Virus record (IMG/VR): IMGVR_UViG_3300009512_000109
Coordinates: 1 to 20,830 of that record
Strand: one strand, 5' to 3'
DNA from: a virus
Length of the DNA stretch: 20,830 bases
Shown: one piece after another, positions 427 to 19,515 of the stretch
Layout: each line of letters opens with the position of its first letter
How positions within the stretch are numbered: position 1 is the first letter of the stretch
Translations under genes and position numbers: made by a program
The notes under the pieces: generated by a model
Told to the model about the DNA's origin: nothing
Database searches by the model: none
What the model saw: the letters and a program-made list of their open reading frames with translations, nothing else

Positions 427-445
427 CTATCGGTGCCACCGATAG
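427..445 (+). promoter_or_regulatory. 19-bp palindrome, leader copy 1
   Basis: CTATCGGTGCCACCGATAG is a perfect palindrome with 9-bp arms and one central base. As RNA it can fold into a 7-bp hairpin with a 5-nt loop (UGCCA). It lies about 38 bp beyond the P1 -10 box and ends 26 nt before the first ATG. Identical copies are at 2806-2824 and 3985-4003. A CGATAG at 409-414 could pair with the left arm and form an alternative fold at this copy only. Confidence 0.75.
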
Positions 446-2851: not shown

Positions 2852-3760
2852 ATGAATAGCACAGCACCTGTAGTACCTAACCGCGTTTCCATTGCATCAT
2901 CATGCAGTAACGTAGAGTTCACCGTGTCGCTTTGGACAGGACGCAAGAAAGACAAACGAGCATCCGCTCAGGTAACGAATGACAACAACGCCGAATCTGG
3001 ATCGGCAGGGGTATACAAGAAGTTGTTTGGTAACTGCCCTGAGTTGGAGGCGATCACCAAACACGTTGGACACGTACGTAACCACATCCACTACAAGCTG
3101 ACCATGCCGTGGTCTGACCTAGGCCAGCGTCTACTTGCTACTGCGATGCTCCCCGACTATCAGCTCTTGATGAGTGAGGCCGAGGTCGAGTTCTGGCGGT
3201 TGGTCAAGGAGTTCATGAAGGTCTATCAGTGGGAGGTGTCGCAAGCTGGGGCCAAGATGGGTACGTTACACCGTCCCGAGGACTATCCCTCCGAGGATGA
3301 GATACGTGAGAAGTTCGCGTTCAGGGTGATGTACACACCTGTAGCCGAGAATGATTTCCGCTGTGATGTAGGTAATGAGCAGTTACAAGAGATGCAGGAG
3401 CTTTACGATACGCACTACCCTGCGATGGTTAATGCAGCGATGCGCCACGTCCATGACGTTACTGTTAAGACGTTAACCAAGCTGCACGACTCGATTGATT
3501 GGCAGGAGGGTGAGCGGAAGGGCAAGATATATGAGTCAGTCTTCGACTCTTGTCTGGATCAGATCGACATGCTGGAGACGTGTAATCTTACCGGCGATAC
3601 GCAGATGGCAGCCATACATGCCAAGCTCAAGGCACAGTTTGCTGGGGCCGGTATGCAGGGACTATCACCCGAAGCACTCAAGGAAGATGCCGTATTACGC
3701 CGCCAAACCAAGGCTGTGCTGGCAGATGCTATCAGTGCTCTACCTTCGTTGGGGATGTAG
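2852..3760 (+). CDS. Hypothetical protein of the AAA+/VWA operon
   Basis: The product is 302 aa, predicted soluble. I do not recognise a named family. The N-terminus has VEFTVSLWTGRKKDKRAS (about 22-39), then a central helical section containing HIHYKLTMPWSDLGQRLL (about 78-95), a FWRLVKEFMKVYQWEV helix and PVAENDFRCDVGNEQLQEMQ. The C-terminal third is helical with regular charged heptads. It is the first gene behind P2 and the palindromic leader and shares its operon with the MoxR-type ATPase and VWA protein, so a partner, substrate or adaptor role is plausible but inferred. The start follows CTCTGGAGAGTAAGT. Confidence 0.7.
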   Translation: MNSTAPVVPNRVSIASSCSNVEFTVSLWTGRKKDKRASAQVTNDNNAESGSAGVYKKLFGNCPELEAITKHVGHVRNHIHYKLTMPWSDLGQRLLATAMLPDYQLLMSEAEVEFWRLVKEFMKVYQWEVSQAGAKMGTLHRPEDYPSEDEIREKFAFRVMYTPVAENDFRCDVGNEQLQEMQELYDTHYPAMVNAAMRHVHDVTVKTLTKLHDSIDWQEGERKGKIYESVFDSCLDQIDMLETCNLTGDTQMAAIHAKLKAQFAGAGMQGLSPEALKEDAVLRRQTKAVLADAISALPSLGM

Positions 3761-3762
3761 AC

Positions 3763-3978
3763 ATGAGGTATACACAAGCTGAAAACGCGTTATGGGTACG
3801 TGAAGGTAAGTTCCGAGACATGGTGCATCCACGTGATGCCTTTCGAGACTTACCCCTACCCGAAGCCGAGAAGGAAGATTGGATGTACATGTACAGCCGA
3901 GGCAGTAAGCACTTCTTTAAACATATCGACACCCGTGAATACCTCACGGTGACTCGACCACACCGCAACAAGCGGTAA
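3763..3978 (+). CDS. Small basic hypothetical protein
   Basis: The product is 71 aa starting MRYTQAENALW. It is rich in charged and aromatic residues, with a basic C-terminus (TVTRPHRNKR). No family is recognised. The start lies 2 nt after the previous stop, so it is likely translated by re-initiation; no strong separate RBS is visible. It is followed by the third palindromic leader. A role in nucleic-acid or partner binding is possible from its charge only. Confidence 0.55.
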   Translation: MRYTQAENALWVREGKFRDMVHPRDAFRDLPLPEAEKEDWMYMYSRGSKHFFKHIDTREYLTVTRPHRNKR

Positions 3979-3984
3979 CCCTAT

Positions 3985-4003
3985 CTATCGGTGCCACCGA
4001 TAG
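3985..4003 (+). promoter_or_regulatory. 19-bp palindrome, leader copy 3
   Basis: This is the third exact copy of CTATCGGTGCCACCGATAG. It lies between the 71-aa gene and the AAA+ ATPase gene, 29 nt before ATG 4033. Unlike copies 1 and 2, no promoter-like hexamers lie upstream, so this copy sits inside a transcribed operon. That favours an RNA role (processing, stability or translational control) over a simple transcription operator. Confidence 0.75.
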
Positions 4004-4032
4004 TTAAACCTTAAATACTCTGGAGAGTAAGC

Positions 4033-5166
4033 ATGAATAACTACGCACTATCACATACACAGATCTGCAACCCACTCGTTGCGCAATCAATGAACCCGGT
4101 CAAGGATAAGAAGCGACGAACCATCCTCGTCGAGGGCCGGATGGGTTGGGGTAAGTCCTCGATACTACACATGCTAGCCGAGCGTCTACCTAACCACTTA
4201 CCCTGTTACTTTGACTGCACGACCAAGGATCTTGGTGACATCACCATCCCCGATCTCAGGAAGATGGATGACGGCAGCGGGTTCGTACGGTACCTGACCA
4301 ACGAGGAGCTGGGCATCCACACCAACAAGCCCGTCATCCTCATGCTAGACGAGTGGGGTAAGTGTAACCCCGCAGTACTCAACGCTACGCTGCGTATTGT
4401 GCAGGAAGGTAAGATTGGGTCATACACGTTACACCCTGACTCTGTGGTGTTCTGCACGACTAACCTCGCAGCGGAGGGTGTAGGTGACAGGCTGTTAGCG
4501 CATCAGCATGACAGGGTGACCACAGTTGAGCTGGCTAACCCCACGCCCTCCGAGTGGGTAGAGTGGGGGTACAACAACAATATCCACACGACTGTACTGG
4601 CGTGGGTCAATGGCAACGAGAAGATCTTTGCCGACTTCCGTGACTTGGAAGATCCCGAGGAGAACCCGTACATCCCACACCCACGGTCTAGCCGGAAGCA
4701 TGGGGTAACAGGTCGCTCCCTTGAAGCAGCATCAGGATGGTTGCACTTAAGTGATCAGTTTGATGAGCCTACGCTAATGAGTTTACTCATCGGTACGATA
4801 GGCAATGCCGCAGCAGGTGACCTCATGACGTTCGCCAAGCTGGCGGGTGACCTGCCTTCCATCGACTCGATCAGGACTGACCCACATGGTGCGAAGGTAC
4901 CCGTTACGGCAGCGGCACAGATGATGGTGATCTATCGGGTGATGGACGTGCTCAATGACCCGCAGATGATAGACCCTTGGTTCACCTACATGATGCGTTT
5001 ACCCCGTGAAACACAGACGGTATTCGTGTCACGTTGTAGGCAGTTAAGCAGTGACCTCAAGCTCCACCCGAAGGCCGCCAAGCTCAAGAATCGTATCCTC
5101 CAGAACAGGGTGTATACAGATTGGGCGGTCGAGAACAACTACCTATTCACAGCAGACAAAGTATAA
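4033..5166 (+). CDS. MoxR-type AAA+ ATPase
   Basis: The product is 377 aa. It has a clear AAA+ core: Walker A GRMGWGKSS (35-43, Lys41), Walker B VILMLDEW (101-108, Asp106-Glu107), sensor-1 Asn144 in FCTTNL, and DRLLAHQHDR (152-161) at the arginine-finger region. About 200 C-terminal residues are helical. The layout matches MoxR/RavA/CobS-type ATPases, which as hexamers remodel partners carrying a von Willebrand A domain; such a partner is the next gene, 9 nt downstream. The target here is unknown. Its own palindromic leader and GGAGAG RBS precede the ATG, so it may be expressed differently from the genes before it. Confidence 0.88.
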   Translation: MNNYALSHTQICNPLVAQSMNPVKDKKRRTILVEGRMGWGKSSILHMLAERLPNHLPCYFDCTTKDLGDITIPDLRKMDDGSGFVRYLTNEELGIHTNKPVILMLDEWGKCNPAVLNATLRIVQEGKIGSYTLHPDSVVFCTTNLAAEGVGDRLLAHQHDRVTTVELANPTPSEWVEWGYNNNIHTTVLAWVNGNEKIFADFRDLEDPEENPYIPHPRSSRKHGVTGRSLEAASGWLHLSDQFDEPTLMSLLIGTIGNAAAGDLMTFAKLAGDLPSIDSIRTDPHGAKVPVTAAAQMMVIYRVMDVLNDPQMIDPWFTYMMRLPRETQTVFVSRCRQLSSDLKLHPKAAKLKNRILQNRVYTDWAVENNYLFTADKV

Positions 5167-5175
5167 GGAGATAAC

Positions 5176-6519
5176 ATGTTAGCGTTTAACACAAACTTAA
5201 CAGTAGAACAGCGCATTGCAAAAGCCACTATGGCACTTGATGCGCACCGGAAATGGGTACCCTTCATGGCAGTGGGTATGATCGGACGGAGTTACGTTGT
5301 AGAAGATGGCGTACTACCTCATGACACGATGGCGACCGATGGCAGGGACGTGTGGTACTGCCGATCCTTCGTTGACAGTATTCGTGACTCAGACTTACGG
5401 TTCGGTATCCTCCACGAGCGATACCATAAAGCCCTTGAACACCTTACTACATGGGATTACCTGACCAAGATAGATCCCCAGTGTACTAACGTGTCTATGG
5501 ATCATGTCATCAACCTACAGATCATGGACATAGATGACGGCGAGGGGTTCGTGACCCTACCACTCAAGGCGGACGGCACGGTGATGGTCTGCTTTGATGT
5601 CAAGTACAGGGGTATGGATACGCTACAGATATTCAATATCCTCAGAGAACAAGAAGGTGATGACCCTGACGGCCCTGCTGGTGGTGGTGGTGATAGCCTT
5701 GATGGTGGTGATAGTGAGGATGACCCTGACGGCCCTGCTGGTAGTGGTGGTGATGGCCCTGAAGGTGATGATAGTGAGGATGGCCCTAGTGGTAACGGGG
5801 GTGGCTACGGAGGGTTTGACGATCATGATTGGGAGGGTGCGAGGAAACTAACTACCGAGGAGGTAAAGAAGTTAGGTACTGAGATAGCCGAGGCACTACG
5901 TGAAGGTTCGATGGCAGCAGGGCAGTTGGGTGGTTCAGGGGCTGAGGTAGGGTTCGATAAGATGCTTGAACCCCAAGTCGATTGGCGTGAGGTACTACGT
6001 GACTTTATCAGCAGCACGTGTTCAGGCAATGACTTCTCTACCTACGCACGGCCCAACCGACGATACATGTCTACAGGGGTGTATATGCCTAGCGGGATCA
6101 GCCAACGTGTTGATACGTTAGTGCTAGCCATCGACACATCAGGATCGGTATCGCAGCCAGAGATATCTTTGATGCTAGCCGAGGTCAAGTCTATCTGCGA
6201 TATCGCCAGACCAGAGAAGGTTACCATCTTGTACTGGGGCAGTAGTGTGGTGCGCCGTGAGGACTACGACGACACCAACATGCACACGCTGATCGACAGC
6301 ACCAAGCCGAAAGACGGTGGGGGTACGCGAGTTGAATGTGTACCGGACTTCATGCGCGAGCACAACATAGAGGCACAAGCTGTTGTCGTGTTTACAGATG
6401 GGTACGTCTATGCCGGATGGGGTAAGTGGGATTGTCCAGTGCTCTGGACGGTACTCGACAACAAGCAGTGCCAGCCTGACATAGGTAAGGTATGTCACGT
6501 CAGCACACAAACACGTTAA
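5176..6519 (+). CDS. DUF2201-type metallopeptidase-like/VWA protein
   Basis: The product is 447 aa. The N-terminal domain carries HERYH (80-84, an HExxH zinc-peptidase motif) and SMDHVINLQI (108-117), the pattern of DUF2201 N-terminal putative metallopeptidases. A disordered Gly/Asp/Pro linker (about 160-215) follows, built from 20-aa repeats. The C-terminal VWA-like domain has a MIDAS DTSGS (320-324), a GGGT loop and FTDGY. Families of this kind pair with MoxR-type AAA+ ATPases, and the ATPase is directly upstream. The motif set supports metal binding in both domains; peptidase activity is unproven. RBS AAGGAG lies 6 nt before the ATG. Alternative: a CobT-like chelatase subunit. Confidence 0.85.
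   Translation: MLAFNTNLTVEQRIAKATMALDAHRKWVPFMAVGMIGRSYVVEDGVLPHDTMATDGRDVWYCRSFVDSIRDSDLRFGILHERYHKALEHLTTWDYLTKIDPQCTNVSMDHVINLQIMDIDDGEGFVTLPLKADGTVMVCFDVKYRGMDTLQIFNILREQEGDDPDGPAGGGGDSLDGGDSEDDPDGPAGSGGDGPEGDDSEDGPSGNGGGYGGFDDHDWEGARKLTTEEVKKLGTEIAEALREGSMAAGQLGGSGAEVGFDKMLEPQVDWREVLRDFISSTCSGNDFSTYARPNRRYMSTGVYMPSGISQRVDTLVLAIDTSGSVSQPEISLMLAEVKSICDIARPEKVTILYWGSSVVRREDYDDTNMHTLIDSTKPKDGGGTRVECVPDFMREHNIEAQAVVVFTDGYVYAGWGKWDCPVLWTVLDNKQCQPDIGKVCHVSTQTR
5659..5778 (+). repeat. 60-bp in-frame tandem repeat in the VWA gene
   Basis: Two 60-bp units (5659-5718, 5719-5778) start GATGACCCTGACGGCCCTGC, and a degenerate third begins at 5779. They encode 20-residue units of the DDPDGPAG...GGDSE type in the linker between the peptidase-like and VWA domains. 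Each unit contains GGT-rich runs. The period is an exact multiple of three, so gain or loss of a unit would change linker length without breaking the frame. Confidence 0.85.
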
Positions 6520-6531
6520 GAGGAAGACACA

Positions 6532-6996
6532 ATGAGTAGAAATAAATTACCACCAATGATGGGTGAGTCCCTACGTTGCGATGACGAAGAGGCTTACCAC
6601 TATGTAGCAAAGCGCACACCGTTTAACGGTAACGTGTTTAGTTCTAAATGGCATAGCAACGACCACGTCCGTGGCGAGAGGTATGTAGTGAGTGCTTGGA
6701 GATACGCGAGGGGAGGTAGCCAGTTCATCCCGCTGCTGATATGGGAGGGGCGGTACGGTCGGGATCGTGGCATGTGGTACTCAGTCACTGGAGAAGATTC
6801 GTGGATGTGTAACGCCCTTAACGCAGGGATCTTCAACGATGGTGATAGCACCACGCCGCTCACACCAAAGGACATGCGCGTGATGGTGAATTATGGTATC
6901 GGTGGGGTAGCCCTCGACATGGGAGCTGGTATTGAGGAAGAGAGGAAGCCAACGGGCATATACGCCCTAGACAACAACGAAGGAGAAAAGAAATGA
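6532..6996 (+). CDS. Hypothetical protein
   Basis: The product is 154 aa starting MSRNKLPPMMGE. I do not recognise a family with confidence. The middle (RYVVSAWRYARGGSQFIPLLIWE, then MWYSVTGEDSW) is rich in Tyr and Trp and predicted beta, loosely like small phage proteins with a Y-V-V-x-S-Y-G core. There is no membrane segment. The RBS is AGGAAG 6 nt before the ATG, 12 nt after the VWA gene, so it probably rides on the same transcript. Its last four bases overlap the next start (ATGA). Confidence 0.65.
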   Translation: MSRNKLPPMMGESLRCDDEEAYHYVAKRTPFNGNVFSSKWHSNDHVRGERYVVSAWRYARGGSQFIPLLIWEGRYGRDRGMWYSVTGEDSWMCNALNAGIFNDGDSTTPLTPKDMRVMVNYGIGGVALDMGAGIEEERKPTGIYALDNNEGEKK

Positions 6997-8036
6997 CTGT
7001 ATATTTTAACGGCGCATTAATGCGGAGTAATAGACCAAGGGTGTCAACTATTGTGGCTCCGAAGTACCTACCCGACTTCGATCTGGACAGGTATATACAT
7101 GAGGTTAACGTGTCACTAGCTAACACGCCGCACGATGACGCACCCAAAATAAAGGACTTCCTTGTATTCTTACAGCAGCTTAAGAAGTCATTTAGGTGGT
7201 GCTCATTTGCGATAGCTGCCCCAACGCTATACGCCCAACGACTAGCAAAGGAGACGCAGGGGGCAATGGATGCGTACAAAGCTAGTGCCCATCTGATACG
7301 TTCCCCTTATACAATGGCACCCAAGATACTAGTGTACCTACCTTCAAACAGGTATGTATCTGGGTGGGTATCTCTTGGTGACTTCCGTATGGGAGATAGC
7401 GCCCCCATACCTAAGATCGCGGTGTGGTCTCCCCATATCACTAACGGGAGTACTGGCAACGATAACATGCAGCACTCGCTGAAGGTCTCAACCAAGGTGA
7501 AGACAGCGATATCCACTGCGAAGCGGTACTTCAAGGATGAGAATATGGGGGAGATAGCTAGATCCCTAAGCAACGAGCCGAGCCACGCGGTGGCGAGTTA
7601 TGATCGTGATCTAGCACAACTTGTAGCCGAAGCAAAAAAATCCCTCTGTACTGATGCCGCATTCCCAGCAGCAATGGCCCAACTCGCAGCTAGTGGGTAT
7701 ACGTTTACGGATCTAGGTCTGAAAGAGAAGCTGCAGACGTACATCACGGAAATGGAATACCAAGCCGAAAACAGTACGGGAGGCAACCCTGAGCTTATGT
7801 ATATCCGAGGGTATGTTAAGGGTGGTGTGCAGATGTTTGATCGTGTCAAACGCCCCTTTGGTTATGGTTATGGCTCCCACAATGATAAATCCGAAGTCCT
7901 TGGGACGTGTAGAGAGGAGGATCTATCGGAGGATATTAAGCGCAAGTTGTCGACCCTGATGATGGGGGAGGATATGTCTTTTGTTGCAGGGGCGGGGTAC
8001 AAGCTAGACGAGGAAATTTACTATGTCTACACCTAG
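6993..8036 (+). CDS. Hypothetical 347-aa protein
   Basis: The product is 347 aa, soluble, and not recognised. The N-terminal half contains KDFLVFLQQLKKSFRWCSF and VSTIVAPKYLPDFDLDRY, and the central section includes a helical stretch (VSTKVKTAISTAKRYFKD). The C-terminal 45 residues (EEDLSEDIKRKLSTLMM...GAGYKLDEEIYYVYT) resemble the end of the next small protein. It overlaps the previous gene by ATGA and the next by 14 nt. The RBS GGAG lies about 10 nt upstream (AAGGAGAAAAGAAATG). Confidence 0.7.
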   Translation: MTVYFNGALMRSNRPRVSTIVAPKYLPDFDLDRYIHEVNVSLANTPHDDAPKIKDFLVFLQQLKKSFRWCSFAIAAPTLYAQRLAKETQGAMDAYKASAHLIRSPYTMAPKILVYLPSNRYVSGWVSLGDFRMGDSAPIPKIAVWSPHITNGSTGNDNMQHSLKVSTKVKTAISTAKRYFKDENMGEIARSLSNEPSHAVASYDRDLAQLVAEAKKSLCTDAAFPAAMAQLAASGYTFTDLGLKEKLQTYITEMEYQAENSTGGNPELMYIRGYVKGGVQMFDRVKRPFGYGYGSHNDKSEVLGTCREEDLSEDIKRKLSTLMMGEDMSFVAGAGYKLDEEIYYVYT

Positions 8037-8286
8037 TGTGGATGTGGACGGTATGTACCGTGTAGCTGTTAACGTGTCTTCTGGTAACGTACAAGTGGTA
8101 TGTATTGGCCTATGGTGCGTTGACAGCCCTGATGAAGGGGAGTACAGTGATGTAGATGCCCTGCCGAGCTGGATACAGAGGAGACTAGCCGTGCTGATGA
8201 CAGTCGATACTCTAGAGCGGGTGCGAGGTGTCGGACGGCGTGTTTCCCATAACGTGTTTTATGTATACGAGGAGTTAAACAAGTGA
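8023..8286 (+). CDS. Small protein related to the C-terminal domain of its neighbour
   Basis: The product is 87 aa. Its residues 45-82 (ALPSWIQRRLAVLM...VRGVGRRVSHNVFYVYE) line up with the C-terminus of the 347-aa protein just upstream (DLSEDIKRKLSTLMM...VAGAGYKLDEEIYYVYT), sharing L-x4-I-x-R-x-L-x2-LM, G-x-G and YVY. It looks like a free-standing copy of that domain. The start overlaps the upstream gene by 14 nt in another frame, with GAGG 9 nt before. It ends YEELNK, whose codons supply the GAGGAG site for the next gene (GTGA overlap). Function is unknown. Confidence 0.65.
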   Translation: MSTPSVDVDGMYRVAVNVSSGNVQVVCIGLWCVDSPDEGEYSDVDALPSWIQRRLAVLMTVDTLERVRGVGRRVSHNVFYVYEELNK

Positions 8287-8489
8287 ACAAACACATTGAA
8301 CTAGTAAAGAAATGGTTGGCAGGTGAAGTAGTTAGTGTAGAAGCACTAAAGGCAAATGCTGTCGCCGCCGATGTTGCTGCCGATGTTGCTGCTGCTGCCA
8401 ATGCTGCTGCTGCTGCTGCTGCTTATGCTGCTGCTGCTGAAGCCGCTGCTTACTGGGTTAAACAATACGAGGAGTTAACAAGTGAATAA
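8283..8489 (+). CDS. Ala-rich repeat protein, paralogue B
   Basis: The product is 68 aa. Start is GTG 8283 with GAGGAG 10 nt upstream, overlapping the prior stop. The order is a conserved N-terminus NKHIELVKKWLAGE...VEALKAN (1-26), an almost pure Ala tract with occasional Asp, Asn, Tyr and Glu (about 27-57), and a tail YWVKQYEELTSE. It is clearly homologous to the next gene and, at the N-terminus, to the gene at 2310. The Ala tract is encoded largely by GCT runs, so strand slippage is likely. Function is unknown; the tract should be helical. No signal peptide or membrane segment. Confidence 0.75.
   Translation: MNKHIELVKKWLAGEVVSVEALKANAVAADVAADVAAAANAAAAAAAYAAAAEAAAYWVKQYEELTSE
8354..8455 (+). 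repeat. GCT/GCC microsatellite-like tract
   Basis: The Ala tract of paralogue B is mostly consecutive GCT codons with scattered GAT, TAT, AAT and GAA codons; the longest uninterrupted GCT run covers about 8402-8422. All interruptions keep the frame, so this is a slippage-prone trinucleotide tract within a gene. Confidence 0.75.
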
Positions 8490-8733
8490 ACATATTGCGC
8501 TAGTTAAACGCTGGTTGGCAGGTAAGGACGTTACCACAGAAGAACTGAGGGCTAACTCGATTGCTGCTGATGCGGCTGATGCTAGGGCTGATGCTAGGGC
8601 TGATGTTGTCTGGGCTGCTGCTAGGGCTGCCCATGCTGCTGCCCATGCTACTAGGGCTGATGCGGCTGATGCTAGGGCTGATGCGGGGGATGCTGCCCAC
8701 TGGGTTAAACGATACGAAGAGTTAAGTGAATGA
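8482..8733 (+). CDS. Ala-rich repeat protein, paralogue C
   Basis: The product is 83 aa. Start is GTG 8482, 199 bp after the start of paralogue B, with the same GAGGAGTTAACAAGTG signal. The N-terminus is NKHIALVKRWLAGKDVTTEELRAN. The centre is a repeat of A-D-A-R-A-D-A units with Ala, Arg, Asp, His and Trp, coded by GCTAGGGCTGATGC repeats around 8578-8690. The tail is HWVKRYEELSE. The mix of Arg and Asp spaced along an Ala helix would give salt-bridged helix faces. It overlaps the previous gene by 8 nt and the next by ATGA. Function is unknown. Confidence 0.75.
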   Translation: MNKHIALVKRWLAGKDVTTEELRANSIAADAADARADARADVVWAAARAAHAAAHATRADAADARADAGDAAHWVKRYEELSE

Positions 8734-10230: not shown

Positions 10231-10554
10231 ATGACACCAGAAGTAAAAGTTAAACGGAAAGTTACGGCACAGCTTAAGGCGTTAGGGTGCTACTACTTCT
10301 TCCCTGCGACAGGGGGTTACGGGAGGTCAGGCGTACCGGATATCGTTGGCTGCTACAACGGTAGGTTTTTCGGTATTGAGTGCAAGGCAGGTAAGAACAA
10401 GCCAACGGCGCTACAGGAAAAGAACCTAGCCGAAATAGCTGAGGCGGTAGGTATCGCGTTGGTCGTTAACGAAGAGAATATGAATGACATAAACACGTTA
10501 CTAGGTGCCCCAGTAAAGGACACTAATCAATTAGAATTAGACTTAGGAGTATGA
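10231..10554 (+). CDS. VRR-NUC domain nuclease
   Basis: The product is 107 aa, close to a minimal stand-alone VRR-NUC (PD-(D/E)xK superfamily). Catalytic residues are readable: GVPDIVG (Asp37), IECKAG (Glu50, Lys52), and P-x-ALQ (Gln62) on the following helix, with Glu4 in the N-terminal helix. Phage members of this size act on branched or structured DNA, which fits recombination or replication-fork processing. RBS GGAGAAAAGG precedes the ATG. The rest of its likely DNA-processing set (SNF2-like helicase, RecB-like nuclease, polymerase) lies downstream. Confidence 0.88.
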   Translation: MTPEVKVKRKVTAQLKALGCYYFFPATGGYGRSGVPDIVGCYNGRFFGIECKAGKNKPTALQEKNLAEIAEAVGIALVVNEENMNDINTLLGAPVKDTNQLELDLGV

Positions 10555-10826: not shown

Positions 10827-11465
10827 GTGAAAGCCCCTTACAATGTTAAAGCCGTAGCACGAGCCGACTGCGCACAATTTATCCTAGACATACACTACGC
10901 TAAACGGTGGCCTAGCATTAGTTATGCTTTTGGACTTTTTAAGGATGTCAGATTGGTAGGTGTAGTGACATACGGTACGCCTTTCAGCTCTACTTTACGC
11001 CGTGGTATAGCTGGCCCAGATAACGCGAGTTCAGTGTTAGAACTAAACCGTCTATGCCTACTAGAAAATAATAAGAATGAGGCAAGTATGCTAGTCGGTC
11101 GGTCTTTAAGGCTCCTCCCGCGAGGTAAGATAATAGTAAGTTTTGCTGATACTTCTCAAGGGCACGTGGGTACTGTGTATCAGGCAGCTAACTTTCTTTA
11201 TTGTGGACTTAGCGCGAAACGAACCGATTGGAAGATTAAAGGTCGAGAGCATCTCCATGGGCAAACCATATCAGACGAGTTCAGGGGTGTAAAAAACAGA
11301 GCGCAAGCTGCAAGGGTTAAGTATGGGGACGATTTTTATTTAGCCCCCAGACCAAGGAAGCATAGGTACGTGTTTGTAACTGGCGGGGCTAAGTTCAAGG
11401 CCAACATTAAAAGTCAGATACGATACCCCATAACTCCCGCACCCACTCAGAGGCCGACCTTATAG
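10827..11465 (+). CDS. Mom-like DNA adenine modification protein
   Basis: The product is 212 aa. It matches the pattern of the phage Mu Mom-like family (GNAT-type acyltransferase fold): HYAKRWPSISYAFGLF (23-38), LVGVVTYGTPFSSTLRRG (43-60), VLELNRLCL (70-78), IIVSFADTSQGHVGTVYQA (102-120) and FLYCGLSAKRTDWKIKG (123-139). Mu Mom modifies adenines in DNA to a carbamoylmethyl form, blocking host restriction. Here it would protect phage DNA after synthesis by the neighbouring replication genes. The C-terminal 70 residues are basic. Start is GTG 10827 with AAGGAG 9 nt upstream. Which residue is modified here is unknown. Confidence 0.7.
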   Translation: MKAPYNVKAVARADCAQFILDIHYAKRWPSISYAFGLFKDVRLVGVVTYGTPFSSTLRRGIAGPDNASSVLELNRLCLLENNKNEASMLVGRSLRLLPRGKIIVSFADTSQGHVGTVYQAANFLYCGLSAKRTDWKIKGREHLHGQTISDEFRGVKNRAQAARVKYGDDFYLAPRPRKHRYVFVTGGAKFKANIKSQIRYPITPAPTQRPTL

Positions 11466-11554: not shown

Positions 11555-11872
11555 ATGATGAACGAAGAAAGTAAGGCGTGGGTGGAAGAAGATCTACCTA
11601 TCAGGTCTGATCGAGCGTTAATCTTAGATACGGCAAAAATGTATGTGACCCGAGACCGACAAGCTACCCACGGGGAGCCTGAAGATAGTTTCAGCAGGAT
11701 CGCTGCTTACTGGGGCGTGTACCTTAACAGGGACATAAGCTCAAAAGACGTTGCCATAATGATGACCATGCTGAAGATCGCAAGGCTCGATGAGAATCCG
11801 GGCAACAGGGACAACTGGATAGACGCTTGTGGGTACCTCGCATGTGGTGGGGAGATAAGCACATCGACATAA
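11555..11872 (+). CDS. DUF6378-type phage protein
   Basis: The product is 105 aa. The pattern RQATHGEPEDSFSRIAAYW (about 35-53), then SSKDVAIMMTMLKIAR, then NRDNWIDACGYLACGGE matches the small all-helical DUF6378 family, common in phages next to nucleotide and replication genes. The conserved Asp, Glu and Lys positions recall MazG-like folds, but no activity is shown. RBS GGAG precedes an ATGATG doublet; either ATG (11555 or 11558) could be used. Its end overlaps the polymerase reading frame by about 30 nt. Confidence 0.7.
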   Translation: MMNEESKAWVEEDLPIRSDRALILDTAKMYVTRDRQATHGEPEDSFSRIAAYWGVYLNRDISSKDVAIMMTMLKIARLDENPGNRDNWIDACGYLACGGEISTST

Positions 11873-13716
11873 TCACAGTAGACTTTGAGACTTACTACGA
11901 TAGTAAGTTCTCACTACGAAAGTTAACAGTTGAGGAATACGTTCGGTCATTAGAGTTTGAGGTTATCGGTGTAGGGGTCAAGGTAAACAATGGCCCAACC
12001 GAGTGGGCGAGTGGCACTCACGAACAGATGAAGGAATACCTAGATGGTTTCGCTTGGGAAGAGAGTTCTCTACTATGCCATAACACTATGTTTGACGGTG
12101 CTATACTCAATTGGATTTATGATATTCGTCCTCACGTTTACTTCGACACTCTTTGTATTGCTAGGGCTTTACACGGCGTGGAAGTTGGAGGCAGTCTTAA
12201 GGCACTCGCTACTCGATACAACATTGGAGCGAAAGGAACAGCAGTTGCCGATGCTATAGGGGTACATCGTTGTGATTTTACTGAGGAAGCGTTAGACCTG
12301 TACGGCGACTACTGCATCAATGATGTTGAGTTAACGTATGAACTGTTCGGACTTATGGCAAACGCGTTTCCTCGTACTGAACTAAAGATTATAGACCTGA
12401 CCCTACGGATGTTCATCGAACCCATACTTGAGCTAGATGTGTCACTGTTGGAAGAGCATATTGCGGACACCAGAAACCTTAAAGAGCAGCTAATCTTAGA
12501 TGCTGGGGTCACCAAGAAAGATCTTATGTCTGGGGATAAGTTCGCTGCGTTACTTGAAGGTCTAGGGGTTAAGCCTCCGACGAAGGTGAGTCCGACAACG
12601 GGGAAAAAGACGTTTGCGTTTGCTAAAACAGATCAGGGGTTTATAGACCTACTGGATCATGAAAACATCATGGTGCATATGCTTGCCCATGCACGACTAG
12701 GTAACAAGTCTACGCTTGAAGAGACACGTACTCAGAGGTTTATTGATATCGCGGGGCGGGGCGAGCAGGGTAAGCCGTGGCTCCCTGTACCTATAAAATA
12801 CTACGCTGCCCACACGGGTAGGTTCGGAGGCGATGACAAGATCAACCTACAAAACTTACCTAGCCGAGGGGCAAATGGTAAGAAGTTAAAGCGTAGTATG
12901 GTCGCCCCACGTGGGTACGTAGTGATAGATTGCGACTCTAGTCAGATTGAGGCGAGGGTACTTGCGTGGTTGGCAGGGCAGGATGACTTAGTCCAAGCGT
13001 TTGCCGATGGTAAGGATGTCTATAAGAAGATGGCAGTTATAATCTACGGCGGTCAGGATGAAGATGCAGTAACAAAACCCCAACGGTTTGTCGGTAAGAC
13101 TACGATACTGGGGGCAGGTTATGGCATGGGGGCTGTCCGGTTCGTGGAGCAGCTTAAGACTTTCGATTTTGAGATGGACATTAAGGAAGCCCGTAGAGTT
13201 ATTAGCGTCTACCGTGATACGTATCACCACATAGTGCGTTTATGGAACGATGCGGCCTTTACTATTCAGAACCTAACAGACGGTAACCTCACTACACTAG
13301 GACGAGAGGGTGTACTGAAGGTACGTCCTGAGCTATCTGCTATCGAGTTACCCTCTGGTTTGCTTATGAGGTATGACGATCTAACGTGTACCCCCGCTGA
13401 GGATGAGGGTGAGCGCCCCGAGTACACCTATAAAACACGTAAAGGCCGAACAAGGATCTACGGTGGCAAGCTGATAGAGAATGTGTGCCAAGCTATCGCC
13501 CGGTGTATTATCGCGGAGCAGATGCTAAAAATTAGTGATCGGTATAAGGTGGTGTTAACAGTACATGACTCTGTTGCGAGTTGCGTTCCGGCGGAACAGG
13601 GAGAGGAAGCTCGTGCATACATGGAGGAGTGTATGCGCTGGTTACCCGCATGGGCTGAAGGCTTACCTATCGACTGTGAATCAGGTACAGGGTTATCTTA
13701 TGGAGACTGCGAATGA
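11842..13716 (+). CDS. polA-like: Family A DNA polymerase with 3'-5' exonuclease
   Basis: Counted from ATG 11842 the product is 624 aa. Exonuclease motifs are DFET (Asp14, Glu16), HNTMFD (80-85) and YCIND (157-161). Polymerase motif A is DSSQIEAR (365-372), motif B is K-x3-L-G-x2-YG (Lys419, Leu423), and motif C is HD (575-576). There is no 5'-nuclease domain, as usual in phages. It is the replicative polymerase. Leu occupies the place of E. coli Phe762. The start is uncertain: the best RBS (GGGGAG, 11849-11854) lies downstream of ATG 11842 and TTG 11827, and points at an in-frame ATC at 11863, just before the conserved IITVDFET. Confidence 0.93.
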   Translation: MWWGDKHIDIITVDFETYYDSKFSLRKLTVEEYVRSLEFEVIGVGVKVNNGPTEWASGTHEQMKEYLDGFAWEESSLLCHNTMFDGAILNWIYDIRPHVYFDTLCIARALHGVEVGGSLKALATRYNIGAKGTAVADAIGVHRCDFTEEALDLYGDYCINDVELTYELFGLMANAFPRTELKIIDLTLRMFIEPILELDVSLLEEHIADTRNLKEQLILDAGVTKKDLMSGDKFAALLEGLGVKPPTKVSPTTGKKTFAFAKTDQGFIDLLDHENIMVHMLAHARLGNKSTLEETRTQRFIDIAGRGEQGKPWLPVPIKYYAAHTGRFGGDDKINLQNLPSRGANGKKLKRSMVAPRGYVVIDCDSSQIEARVLAWLAGQDDLVQAFADGKDVYKKMAVIIYGGQDEDAVTKPQRFVGKTTILGAGYGMGAVRFVEQLKTFDFEMDIKEARRVISVYRDTYHHIVRLWNDAAFTIQNLTDGNLTTLGREGVLKVRPELSAIELPSGLLMRYDDLTCTPAEDEGERPEYTYKTRKGRTRIYGGKLIENVCQAIARCIIAEQMLKISDRYKVVLTVHDSVASCVPAEQGEEARAYMEECMRWLPAWAEGLPIDCESGTGLSYGDCE

Positions 13717-14450: not shown

Positions 14451-15122
14451 ATGAGTATAGCCCCGTGGTCGTTCAGTAAAATAAAGTCGTTTGAACAGTG
14501 CGCTAGGCAGTTCCAACACCTTAAGGTTCTTAAGACATACAAAGAAAGTGAGACAACGGCGATGCTCTATGGCACCGCGTTTCACGAAGCAGCAGAAGAG
14601 TACATACGGGATGAGACCCCTATGCCACCCCAGTTTGCCTACGCAAAAGAGGCATTGGATAACCTCAACGCCAAGCAGGGGGATAAGTTATGCGAGTTCA
14701 AAATGGGTTTGACCGAGAACCTAGAACCCTGTGACTTCTTTGCAGATGATGTGTGGTGGCGGGGGATTGCTGACTTAGTGATCATTGATGAAGAGGAAGA
14801 CCTTGCATGGGTCATTGACTATAAGACTGGGAAGAGTGCTAGGTATGCTGATAAAGGGCAGCTTGAGTTGATGGCCTTGGCTGTCTTTAAGTTCTTCCCC
14901 AATATCAAAACCGTTCGTGGGGGGTTATTGTTTGTAGTCTCAAACGAGTTAGTGAAGGATAGTTACGTGAACCTTGACCAAGGGCACCTGTGGGAGAAGT
15001 GGTTAGGTGGGTATGCGAAGATGGAAACCGCGTTTGCGAAGGATGTCTGGAACCCCAACCCCTCTGGCCTTTGCAAGGCGCACTGCATAGTACTTGAATG
15101 TGAACATAACGGGAGAAACTAA
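14451..15122 (+). CDS. RecB/Cas4-like PD-(D/E)xK exonuclease with Fe-S cysteines
   Basis: The product is 223 aa. N-terminal WSFSKIKSFEQCARQF (Cys17) and YGTAFHEAAEEY carry the first conserved His. RGIADLVIIDEEE supplies the active Asp and VIDYKTGK the D-x-K, followed by a Q-x-E-L-M-A-L helix. The C-terminus has Cys208, Cys212 and Cys217. With Cys17 this is the four-cysteine layout of Cas4/AddB-type iron-sulfur nucleases. Phage members are thought to process DNA ends for recombination or packaging; no cas1/cas2 or array is nearby, so a CRISPR role is unlikely. It overlaps the next gene by TAATG. Confidence 0.85.
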   Translation: MSIAPWSFSKIKSFEQCARQFQHLKVLKTYKESETTAMLYGTAFHEAAEEYIRDETPMPPQFAYAKEALDNLNAKQGDKLCEFKMGLTENLEPCDFFADDVWWRGIADLVIIDEEEDLAWVIDYKTGKSARYADKGQLELMALAVFKFFPNIKTVRGGLLFVVSNELVKDSYVNLDQGHLWEKWLGGYAKMETAFAKDVWNPNPSGLCKAHCIVLECEHNGRN

Positions 15123-18719: not shown

Positions 18720-18735
18720 ATTGGAGAAGACACAT

Positions 18736-19515
18736 ATGAGTTACCTCATAAAGAAAGTTAGCATTTTATACCCCCGTCTTGATAAGACATACAGGTTCGA
18801 TAACGCAGAGAATAGGAGCGTCCCGTGCGACCCTACAGAAACTGGCGCTAAGTACGAGACTAGTTTCGTGATGGATGGGGATACCGCCACGGCCCTGATG
18901 GGAGAGATGGCTGTTGCCTACAATACTGCCCGGAAGCCTAGCTGGCCCGAAAAAGTACCCATGCCTTTCTCTAGGGAGGAAGAAGCGTATGTAGGTAAGT
19001 GTAACCTCAAGGGATCTTTTGATGGTAAGCAAGCGACACTGCCACCTAGGCACTTCGATGCTAAGAATAACCCGTTAGAGTCGGGGTTTCAGTTGACCTC
19101 TGGCAGTACCGCTAACCTGTTCGTAGAGTTTGTACCCTACCATAGTAGTGGTATCGGGACGGGCGTGTCTTTACGACTACGTGCCGTGCAGGTTCTGACC
19201 TACAAACCACTTGAAGCAGCATCTCCGTTTGAGGCTACTGATGGTGATTTTGATACGGGGTCACCGTTTGGTGAGGGTACCTCGGGGTTTGATTCCGCAG
19301 ACGAAGCTCCTGCGGCAGTGGCGAATGCCACTGTTAACGTTGTCGGCGGCTACCTCGCTCCTGATAACCTGTTTGTTGAAGAGCCAGAAGTAGCGGAAGT
19401 AGCGGAAGTGGTAGTACCTATAGAAACACCAAAGAAGAAAGTGAAGTCCAAGACGGCTCCTGCACCTAAAGATGAAGTTGATCTTAGTGCTCTTGTTGCC
19501 AACTGGGACGATTAA
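18736..19515 (+). CDS. ssDNA-binding protein, DUF2815/T7 gp2.5-like
   Basis: The product is 259 aa. The core (SYLIKKVSILYPRLDKTYRF ... GKCNLKGSFDGKQATLPPR ... GVSLRLRAVQVLTY) matches the DUF2815/gp2.5-like ssDNA-binding family. A long disordered acidic/Pro/Ala tail ends in DLSALVANWDD, the acidic tip by which such proteins contact polymerase and primase-helicase. It coats single-stranded DNA during replication and recombination. ATG 18736 has GGAGAAG upstream; the in-frame TTG at 18721 lies on the RBS itself and is rejected. It is positioned directly before the primase. Confidence 0.85.
   Translation: MSYLIKKVSILYPRLDKTYRFDNAENRSVPCDPTETGAKYETSFVMDGDTATALMGEMAVAYNTARKPSWPEKVPMPFSREEEAYVGKCNLKGSFDGKQATLPPRHFDAKNNPLESGFQLTSGSTANLFVEFVPYHSSGIGTGVSLRLRAVQVLTYKPLEAASPFEATDGDFDTGSPFGEGTSGFDSADEAPAAVANATVNVVGGYLAPDNLFVEEPEVAEVAEVVVPIETPKKKVKSKTAPAPKDEVDLSALVANWDD

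Follow-up and report, generated by a model that had tools for sequence, protein, structure and literature searches.

Linked genes for a MoxR-type ATPase, a metallopeptidase-VWA protein, and a DUF3150-like protein at the head of a phage replication operon, with relatives on conjugative plasmids

We analyzed the 20,830-base viral fragment IMGVR_UViG_3300009512_000109 (the whole stretch is called the window here) and found that three genes on its plus strand, between positions 2852 and 6519, form a module that recurs in related phages. The genes encode a MoxR-type AAA+ ATPase, a metallopeptidase-VWA protein, and a protein that we read as a divergent member of family DUF3150. The module is at the head of the replication operon, with the late genes on the other strand. 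Modules of this already known kind occur on plasmids and integrating conjugative elements as well as in phages. From sequence comparison and analogy we tentatively favor, with slightly less than even confidence, the reading that the products would form an early, ATP-driven MoxR-VWA remodeling complex with DUF3150 as its third subunit, most likely acting on replication or recombination proteins.

RESULTS

Active-site residues of the ATPase and the metallopeptidase-VWA protein are conserved

When the whole window was compared with phages by megablast, no match was obtained. The four open reading frames of the region are all open and on the plus strand. The ATPase gene (4033 to 5166) encodes 377 amino acids (aa) with a Walker A motif (G35xxGxGK41) and a Walker B motif (D106-E107). 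Its product matched the PHROG family phrog_1297, labeled "ATPase," at an E value of 1.4e-39 (the match to Pfam AAA_5, at 0.0056, was below the cut-off), and the nearest solved chains were the AAA domains of Midasin. The next gene (5176 to 6519) encodes a 447-aa protein with the metallopeptidase motif HERYH at residues 80 to 84 and the metal ion-dependent adhesion site (MIDAS) sequence DTSGS at residues 320 to 324. It was matched by the Pfam models DUF2201_N (PF13203; 1.4e-18, 67.9 bits, cut-off 23.2) and DUF2201 VWA (PF09967; 6.9e-12, 46 bits, cut-off 26.4). The two halves are joined by an acidic, glycine-rich linker, which holds a 60-nucleotide (nt) tandem repeat and is predicted to be disordered (predicted local distance difference test [pLDDT] score, <50). 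In a fold comparison, the VWA half aligned with 3zqk_B (Z 13.0, root mean square deviation 2.4, 136 aligned residues).

Little or no variation was seen at the Walker A, Walker B, HExxH, and MIDAS residues among about 105 related loci, and the conservation of H80, E81, and H84 is 1.00 across 108 relatives. Because of this conservation, the ATPase-VWA machine is expected to be active. Both proteins evolve slowly. Thus, the window carries a MoxR AAA+/VWA pair, that is, intact Walker A and B motifs beside a MIDAS-bearing VWA domain, and the initial annotation, which had named a MoxR-like ATPase beside a DUF2201 protein with HExxH and MIDAS, is borne out by the PHROG and Pfam matches and by the invariant residues. 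Profiles of the two families matched phage N4 proteins gp24 (ATPase, 5e-32) and gp25 (VWA, 5e-43).

Many phage records name the DUF2201 metallopeptidase-VWA protein "HNH endonuclease." The PHROG family phrog_1314, which matched it at 1.6e-73, has this label too; the label found no support in Pfam and we took it as a mislabel. On contigs G020, G021, and G022 (loci L132, L133, and L143), the VWA frame contains one in-frame TAG each, possibly a case of stop codon reassignment.

The 302-aa protein resembles DUF3150 and is linked to the pair

The first gene of the module (2852 to 3760) encodes a 302-aa protein that the initial annotation had left unrecognised. Its own match to Pfam DUF3150 (PF11348) reached 13.3 bits, under the cut-off of 24.9, and PF11348 was matched by 30 of its 54 relatives (best E value, 5.4e-10). 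By tblastn, it found a protein of cyanophage MinM2 that is annotated as DUF3150 (4e-15). An AlphaFold2 model (pLDDT 90) predicted a bundle of helices and, at the N-terminus, a beta element, and the top viral fold match of this model in BFVD was a protein named DUF3150 (E value, 1e-15). On the strength of the relatives and the model, we read the 302-aa protein as a probable divergent DUF3150. Among solved structures, no convincing match was found by sequence or by fold; the helical-bundle matches had Z scores of up to 10.2, in the range of unrelated bundles. A search of the open-access literature for the term "DUF3150" gave zero matches, which is no proof that the family is undescribed.

To count linkage, we gathered loci in two independent searches, one using the 302-aa protein and one using the VWA protein, and counted those flanked by 3.5 kb or more on each side. 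The viral loci are mutually related, and the counts are not independent events. The ATPase and VWA genes were both present in 24/24 viral loci anchored on DUF3150. When the VWA gene served as the anchor, the ATPase gene was present in 36/36 loci and the DUF3150 gene in 33 of the 36. The three genes were always on one strand and within 6 kb, in the order DUF3150-ATPase-VWA or ATPase-VWA-DUF3150, and they were adjacent in both. A third order, ATPase-DUF3150-VWA, was seen in cyanophage MinM2 and on plasmids. No DUF3150 was found on the whole contigs of three VWA loci (L132, L133, and L143). In this lineage, DUF3150 thus usually, but not always, accompanies the pair. Phage KPP25, whose DNA polymerase is related, gave neither a DUF3150 nor a VWA match. 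Pairwise distances of the DUF3150, ATPase, and VWA proteins correlated beyond the PolA, large terminase subunit (TerL), or VRR reference (partial r 0.49 to 0.77), in a rough test with related sequences and relatedness partly removed.

Such linkage would mean little if it reflected shared phage ancestry alone and each gene worked singly. Most viral loci do come from one broad lineage with the same operon. However, the genes remain adjacent despite the changes in order, and they are neighbors again in MinM2 and on unrelated plasmids, which makes this explanation very unlikely in our judgment.

The initial annotation had grouped four genes and named their co-occurrence in other phages as the point on which the grouping would stand or fall. 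Co-occurrence was found for DUF3150, ATPase, and VWA; it was not found for the fourth, 71-aa gene (3763 to 3978), which is kept in one phage subgroup only. Relatives of this gene were present in 35 loci, none of which has the ATPase-VWA-DUF3150 order, and it is an optional rather than a constant part of the module. HicA toxin was considered as its identity and rejected, since 1 of 17 members matched, at 0.0047, below the cut-off.

The module heads a replication operon

Across 76 long related loci, the recurrent order was GroES, portal, and terminase, all three on the other strand, followed by DUF3150, ATPase, VWA, a 309-aa gene, a 347-aa gene, VRR-NUC, PolA, and a Cas4-like nuclease. TerL was on the strand opposite the module in 54/54 and PolA on the same strand in 49/49 of these loci. 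In the window, the operon context on the plus strand includes genes for a VRR-NUC-type endonuclease (10231 to 10554; phrog_93, 1.2e-16; 62/76 loci), a family A DNA polymerase (PolA) with 3'-5' exonuclease (11866 to 13716; 49/76 loci), a Cas4/RecB-like exonuclease (14451 to 15122; phrog_69, 4.7e-19; 47/76 loci), and a Gp2.5-like single-stranded DNA-binding/annealing protein (18721 to 19515; phrog_112, 4.1e-15). Two fast-evolving families escort the module, one of 347 aa (6993 to 8036 in the window, plus strand; 65/76 loci) and one of about 309 aa (L109:12414-13793; 48/76 loci).

Upstream of the module, a sigma70-like promoter with an extended -10 element was predicted on the plus strand (TTGACA-17-CATAAT, 2733 to 2761; 11/12 consensus matches). 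It lies in a 54-nt repeat whose copies are 87% identical, and a near-copy of it (361 to 389), inside the same repeat, precedes an earlier gene. The chaperone-like pair, its placement in an early operon, and its linkage to the 302-aa gene, as the initial annotation had them, are all supported.

A similar position was found in cultured phages. On the N4 map, gp24 and gp25 lie upstream of the replication genes, and they have been classed as middle genes (PMC4193335). In Rhizobium phage RHph_TM3_14A, the pair lies upstream of genes for PolA, a RecB-family nuclease, VRR-NUC, and an SNF2 helicase.

Related clusters are present on conjugative plasmids

On plasmid pCAR1, a DUF3150 gene (PF11348, 8.3e-92) lies between genes for a MoxR-class ATPase and a VWA protein, and the N-terminus of the latter bears HECSH followed by a long acidic low-complexity linker. 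These genes, ORF101-103, are reported to be conserved in R478, Rts1, SXT, and R391 (PMC2642839). The ATPase belongs to the CbbQ/NorQ class of MoxR-type AAA+ proteins, the VWA protein is not of the DUF2201 type, and the gene order differs from that of the phages. Profiles of the viral families matched the pCAR1 proteins weakly or not at all; the two forms are linked by their gene content, by membership in the Pfam family, and by the common HExxH-linker-VWA layout.

Of 1118 plasmid records with DUF3150 relatives, 969 are typed as conjugative; the full three-gene cluster was inspected in a few of the 1118. An IncC plasmid has ssb-bet-exo between the ATPase gene and DUF3150-VWA, and a 304-kb Escherichia coli plasmid has RecT-exo (lambda-type exonuclease) followed by MoxR-DUF3150-VWA. 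Closer relatives of the viral form were found on Burkholderiaceae and Rhodovastum plasmids (viral DUF3150 profile, 1e-50 to 1e-68). These triads, like the module, comprise an ATPase, a DUF3150-like protein, and a DUF2201-type VWA protein; unlike it, they have the order ATPase-DUF3150-VWA and, in Burkholderiaceae, PRTRC and type IV secretion system (T4SS) neighbors. On a Paraburkholderia acidisoli plasmid (L164:7676-8862), the ATPase gene, which lies upstream of the DUF3150 gene, is unannotated and divided between two overlapping frames, and it may be broken.

The plasmid and operon data bear on two other explanations. The MoxR-VWA pair could act as a virion-assembly chaperone, with the metallopeptidase trimming virion parts. 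Virion assembly has been proposed for the same domain pair in jumbo phages (PMC7824862), N4-group roseophages have a second structural module near their gp24/gp25 homologues (PMC4193335), and a GroES relative is among the late genes in 24/76 related loci. However, the module is part of the replication operon, and terminase and portal, wherever they were found, are encoded on the other strand; moreover, plasmids make no virions, yet a related three-gene cluster is widespread among them. Because of this position and distribution, we regard virion assembly as quite unlikely. Alternatively, the complex could serve host takeover or counter-defense by unfolding or cutting a host enzyme or immune protein early, from which plasmids would profit likewise on entry. 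The early promoter and operon position, the occurrence on both phages and conjugative plasmids, and the intact protease motif fit such a role. The slow evolution and invariant active sites of the ATPase and VWA proteins are unlike those of typical counter-defense genes, however, and the plasmid neighbors are recombination or transfer genes. We give this role a modest chance.

Relation to described systems

The ATPase/metallopeptidase-VWA pair has already been described in phages. N4 gp24 and gp25 are core genes of N4-like phages, the Schitoviridae (PMC4193335, PMC7650795); they are homologous to the pair of the window, adjacent, and ahead of replication genes, as in the module, and differ from it in that no DUF3150 gene was detectable anywhere in the N4 genome. 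Jumbo phages carry a MoxR-vWA pair with an N-terminal metallopeptidase and the same architecture, for which the portion of the report that we consulted mentions no DUF3150 partner (PMC7824862). In tailed viruses, the pair has been annotated as cobST (PMC8651126). Given these reports, and the ATPase-DUF3150-VWA cluster on record for pCAR1, the suggestion of an undescribed system finds no support as far as the pair is concerned.

The cobST annotation implies a cobaltochelatase, and a role of CobS/CobT with host CobN, which would raise the cobalamin supply, has been proposed (PMC11288001). However, neither Pfam nor NCBIfam gave a CobS or CobT match at E values up to 0.1, the VWA protein is of the DUF2201 type with HExxH, DUF3150 has no place in the cobalamin pathway, and the window, which is a fragment, shows no cobalamin gene. 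Since the CobS/CobT models fail and DUF3150 has no role there, cobalamin synthesis is highly improbable.

NorQ/NorD, CbbQ/CbbO, and RavA/ViaA are also remodeling pairs of a MoxR AAA+ ATPase and a VWA protein in which the MIDAS binds the client (PMC9976466). Their cellular clients are metalloenzymes or Rubisco, and the accessible part of the source mentions no DUF3150 partner. The VMAP-MoxR-vWA ternary conflict systems (PMC7159879) have a third gene, MoxR, and vWA in the same order as the window. Pfam and PHROG scans of the module, run with no VMAP-specific model, found neither VMAP nor a C-terminal effector domain.

Lineage-specific palindromes precede early genes

The initial annotation had noted that the ATPase gene has its own palindromic leader. 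The palindrome is real, and it is not specific to this gene: CTATCGGTGCCACCGATAG is found in the leader of the 302-aa gene (2806 to 2824), with another copy at 427 to 445 and a third in the ATPase gene leader (3985 to 4003), where no promoter-like site is nearby. The core CTATCGGTG-N-CACCGATAG has three matches in the window (428 to 444, 2807 to 2823, and 3986 to 4002), and 0.02 would be expected by chance. The RNA fold of the whole ATPase leader was unremarkable (z -1.1). The palindrome occurs five times on contig L007, which encodes a 302-aa protein identical to that of the window.

We surveyed the related loci L002 to L162 and MinM2 (L163). A repeated perfect palindrome of its own was found in 110/160 related loci and in 0/480 shuffled sequences (single-base shuffles). 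The sequence is lineage specific and the position is conserved, with 44 distinct 7-base arms having at least three copies. Even close relatives differ: TTATAAGT arms replace TATCGGTG in loci L002 and L003, whose ATPases share 83% and 81% identity, respectively, with that of the window. Most copies lie directly upstream of ribosome-binding sites, and they often touch the preceding stop codon. On contig G006 (63.6 kb), 11/11 copies fall within the stretch from 26.4 to 41.5 kb; their arms are invariant and the two bases at the center vary. Clustering of the same kind is seen on G009. In MinM2, GGTTCAGNCTGAACC occurs 17 times, with 11 copies at 45.6 to 57 kb around the module. These repeated, lineage-specific palindromes are the least expected feature that we saw.

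Invariant arms around a free center argue for a sequence-specific reader, which may be a DNA-binding dimer or an RNA-binding protein. A single-subunit RNA polymerase, considered as the reader, had no match in 12 genomes, in a search in which the control was unmatched too. Among 11 families, none had a divergence that tracks the palindrome switch, and no candidate regulator stood out. The nearest described analogue is the stoperators of mycobacteriophages (PMC6550527). Like these, the palindromes are many-copy, lineage specific, and located in intergenic gaps of the early region. In contrast to the perfect palindromes here, stoperators are short, asymmetric, oriented with transcription, and bound by a known repressor.

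Other features of the window

A protein of the Mom family of DNA modification is encoded at 10827 to 11465 (Pfam Mom, 3.8e-40; phrog_1384, 3.5e-48). Three small, apparently paralogous proteins (2310 to 2624, 8283 to 8489, and 8482 to 8733) have similar starts (e.g., NKHIELVKKWLAG) and Ala-rich low-complexity tails. At 191 to 335, a 43-nt sequence ending in ACGTATAAGGGTTTCATCCATTTCC is directly repeated, in three copies. The sigma70-like promoters at 361 to 389 and 2733 to 2761 are near-identical.

DISCUSSION

We propose that the products of the three genes, made early on in the infection, may act as a single ATP-driven protein-remodeling complex. In this model, the MoxR-type ATPase would assemble into a hexameric ring, the 447-aa protein would bind to the ring through its VWA domain, and the MIDAS metal would hold an acidic residue of the client. 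By analogy with NorQ/NorD, in which the ATPase ring is the docking site of the VWA domain and the MIDAS binds an acidic client patch (PMC9976466), the complex would then pull on the held client, and the HERYH domain may cut the remodeled client. The DUF3150 protein would be a dedicated third subunit, as an adaptor or a regulator. From the gene neighborhoods on plasmids and phages, where the module heads a replication operon or adjoins bet or RecT and exonuclease genes, we infer that the clients are probably DNA-processing proteins of replication or recombination, of the element or the host, rather than virion proteins.

Several observations weigh against this proposal. Neighboring replication genes are co-inherited, so that synteny alone is no proof of function. 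N4, CRP-7, and RHph_TM3_14A carry the pair, and DUF3150 was not detectable in any of them; for this reason, DUF3150 would not always be needed or would be replaced by an unrecognised substitute. The structure matches of the 447-aa protein covered the VWA half only, and the metallopeptidase fold had no structural match. The Burkholderia plasmid copies adjoin PRTRC and T4SS genes, with no recombination genes beside them. Finally, SXT transfer was reduced at most 10-fold by deletions of bet, exo, s067, s068, and s070 (PMC2791158); module genes may be among these.

A wider possibility, which we consider rather doubtful, is that the complex is a general DNA-processing machine of mobile elements, common to phages, plasmids, and integrating conjugative elements, and that the phages described here have it in an early regulon bearing the repeated palindromes. 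The sequence of these palindromes switches between close relatives, in the manner of immunity operators, and a phage regulator would read them. The lineage-specific palindromes may reveal a regulator of rapidly changing specificity.

The comparison ties N4-like gp24 and gp25, 2 of 14 core genes, and the plasmid cluster to one module, and names DUF3150 as its usual third gene. The plasmid distribution and the phage operon position fit neither virion assembly nor cobalamin synthesis, which gives a testable direction. N4, cyanophage MinM2, Rhizobium phage RHph_TM3_14A, and pCAR1 are cultured systems in which the role of the module in phages and plasmids could be tested.

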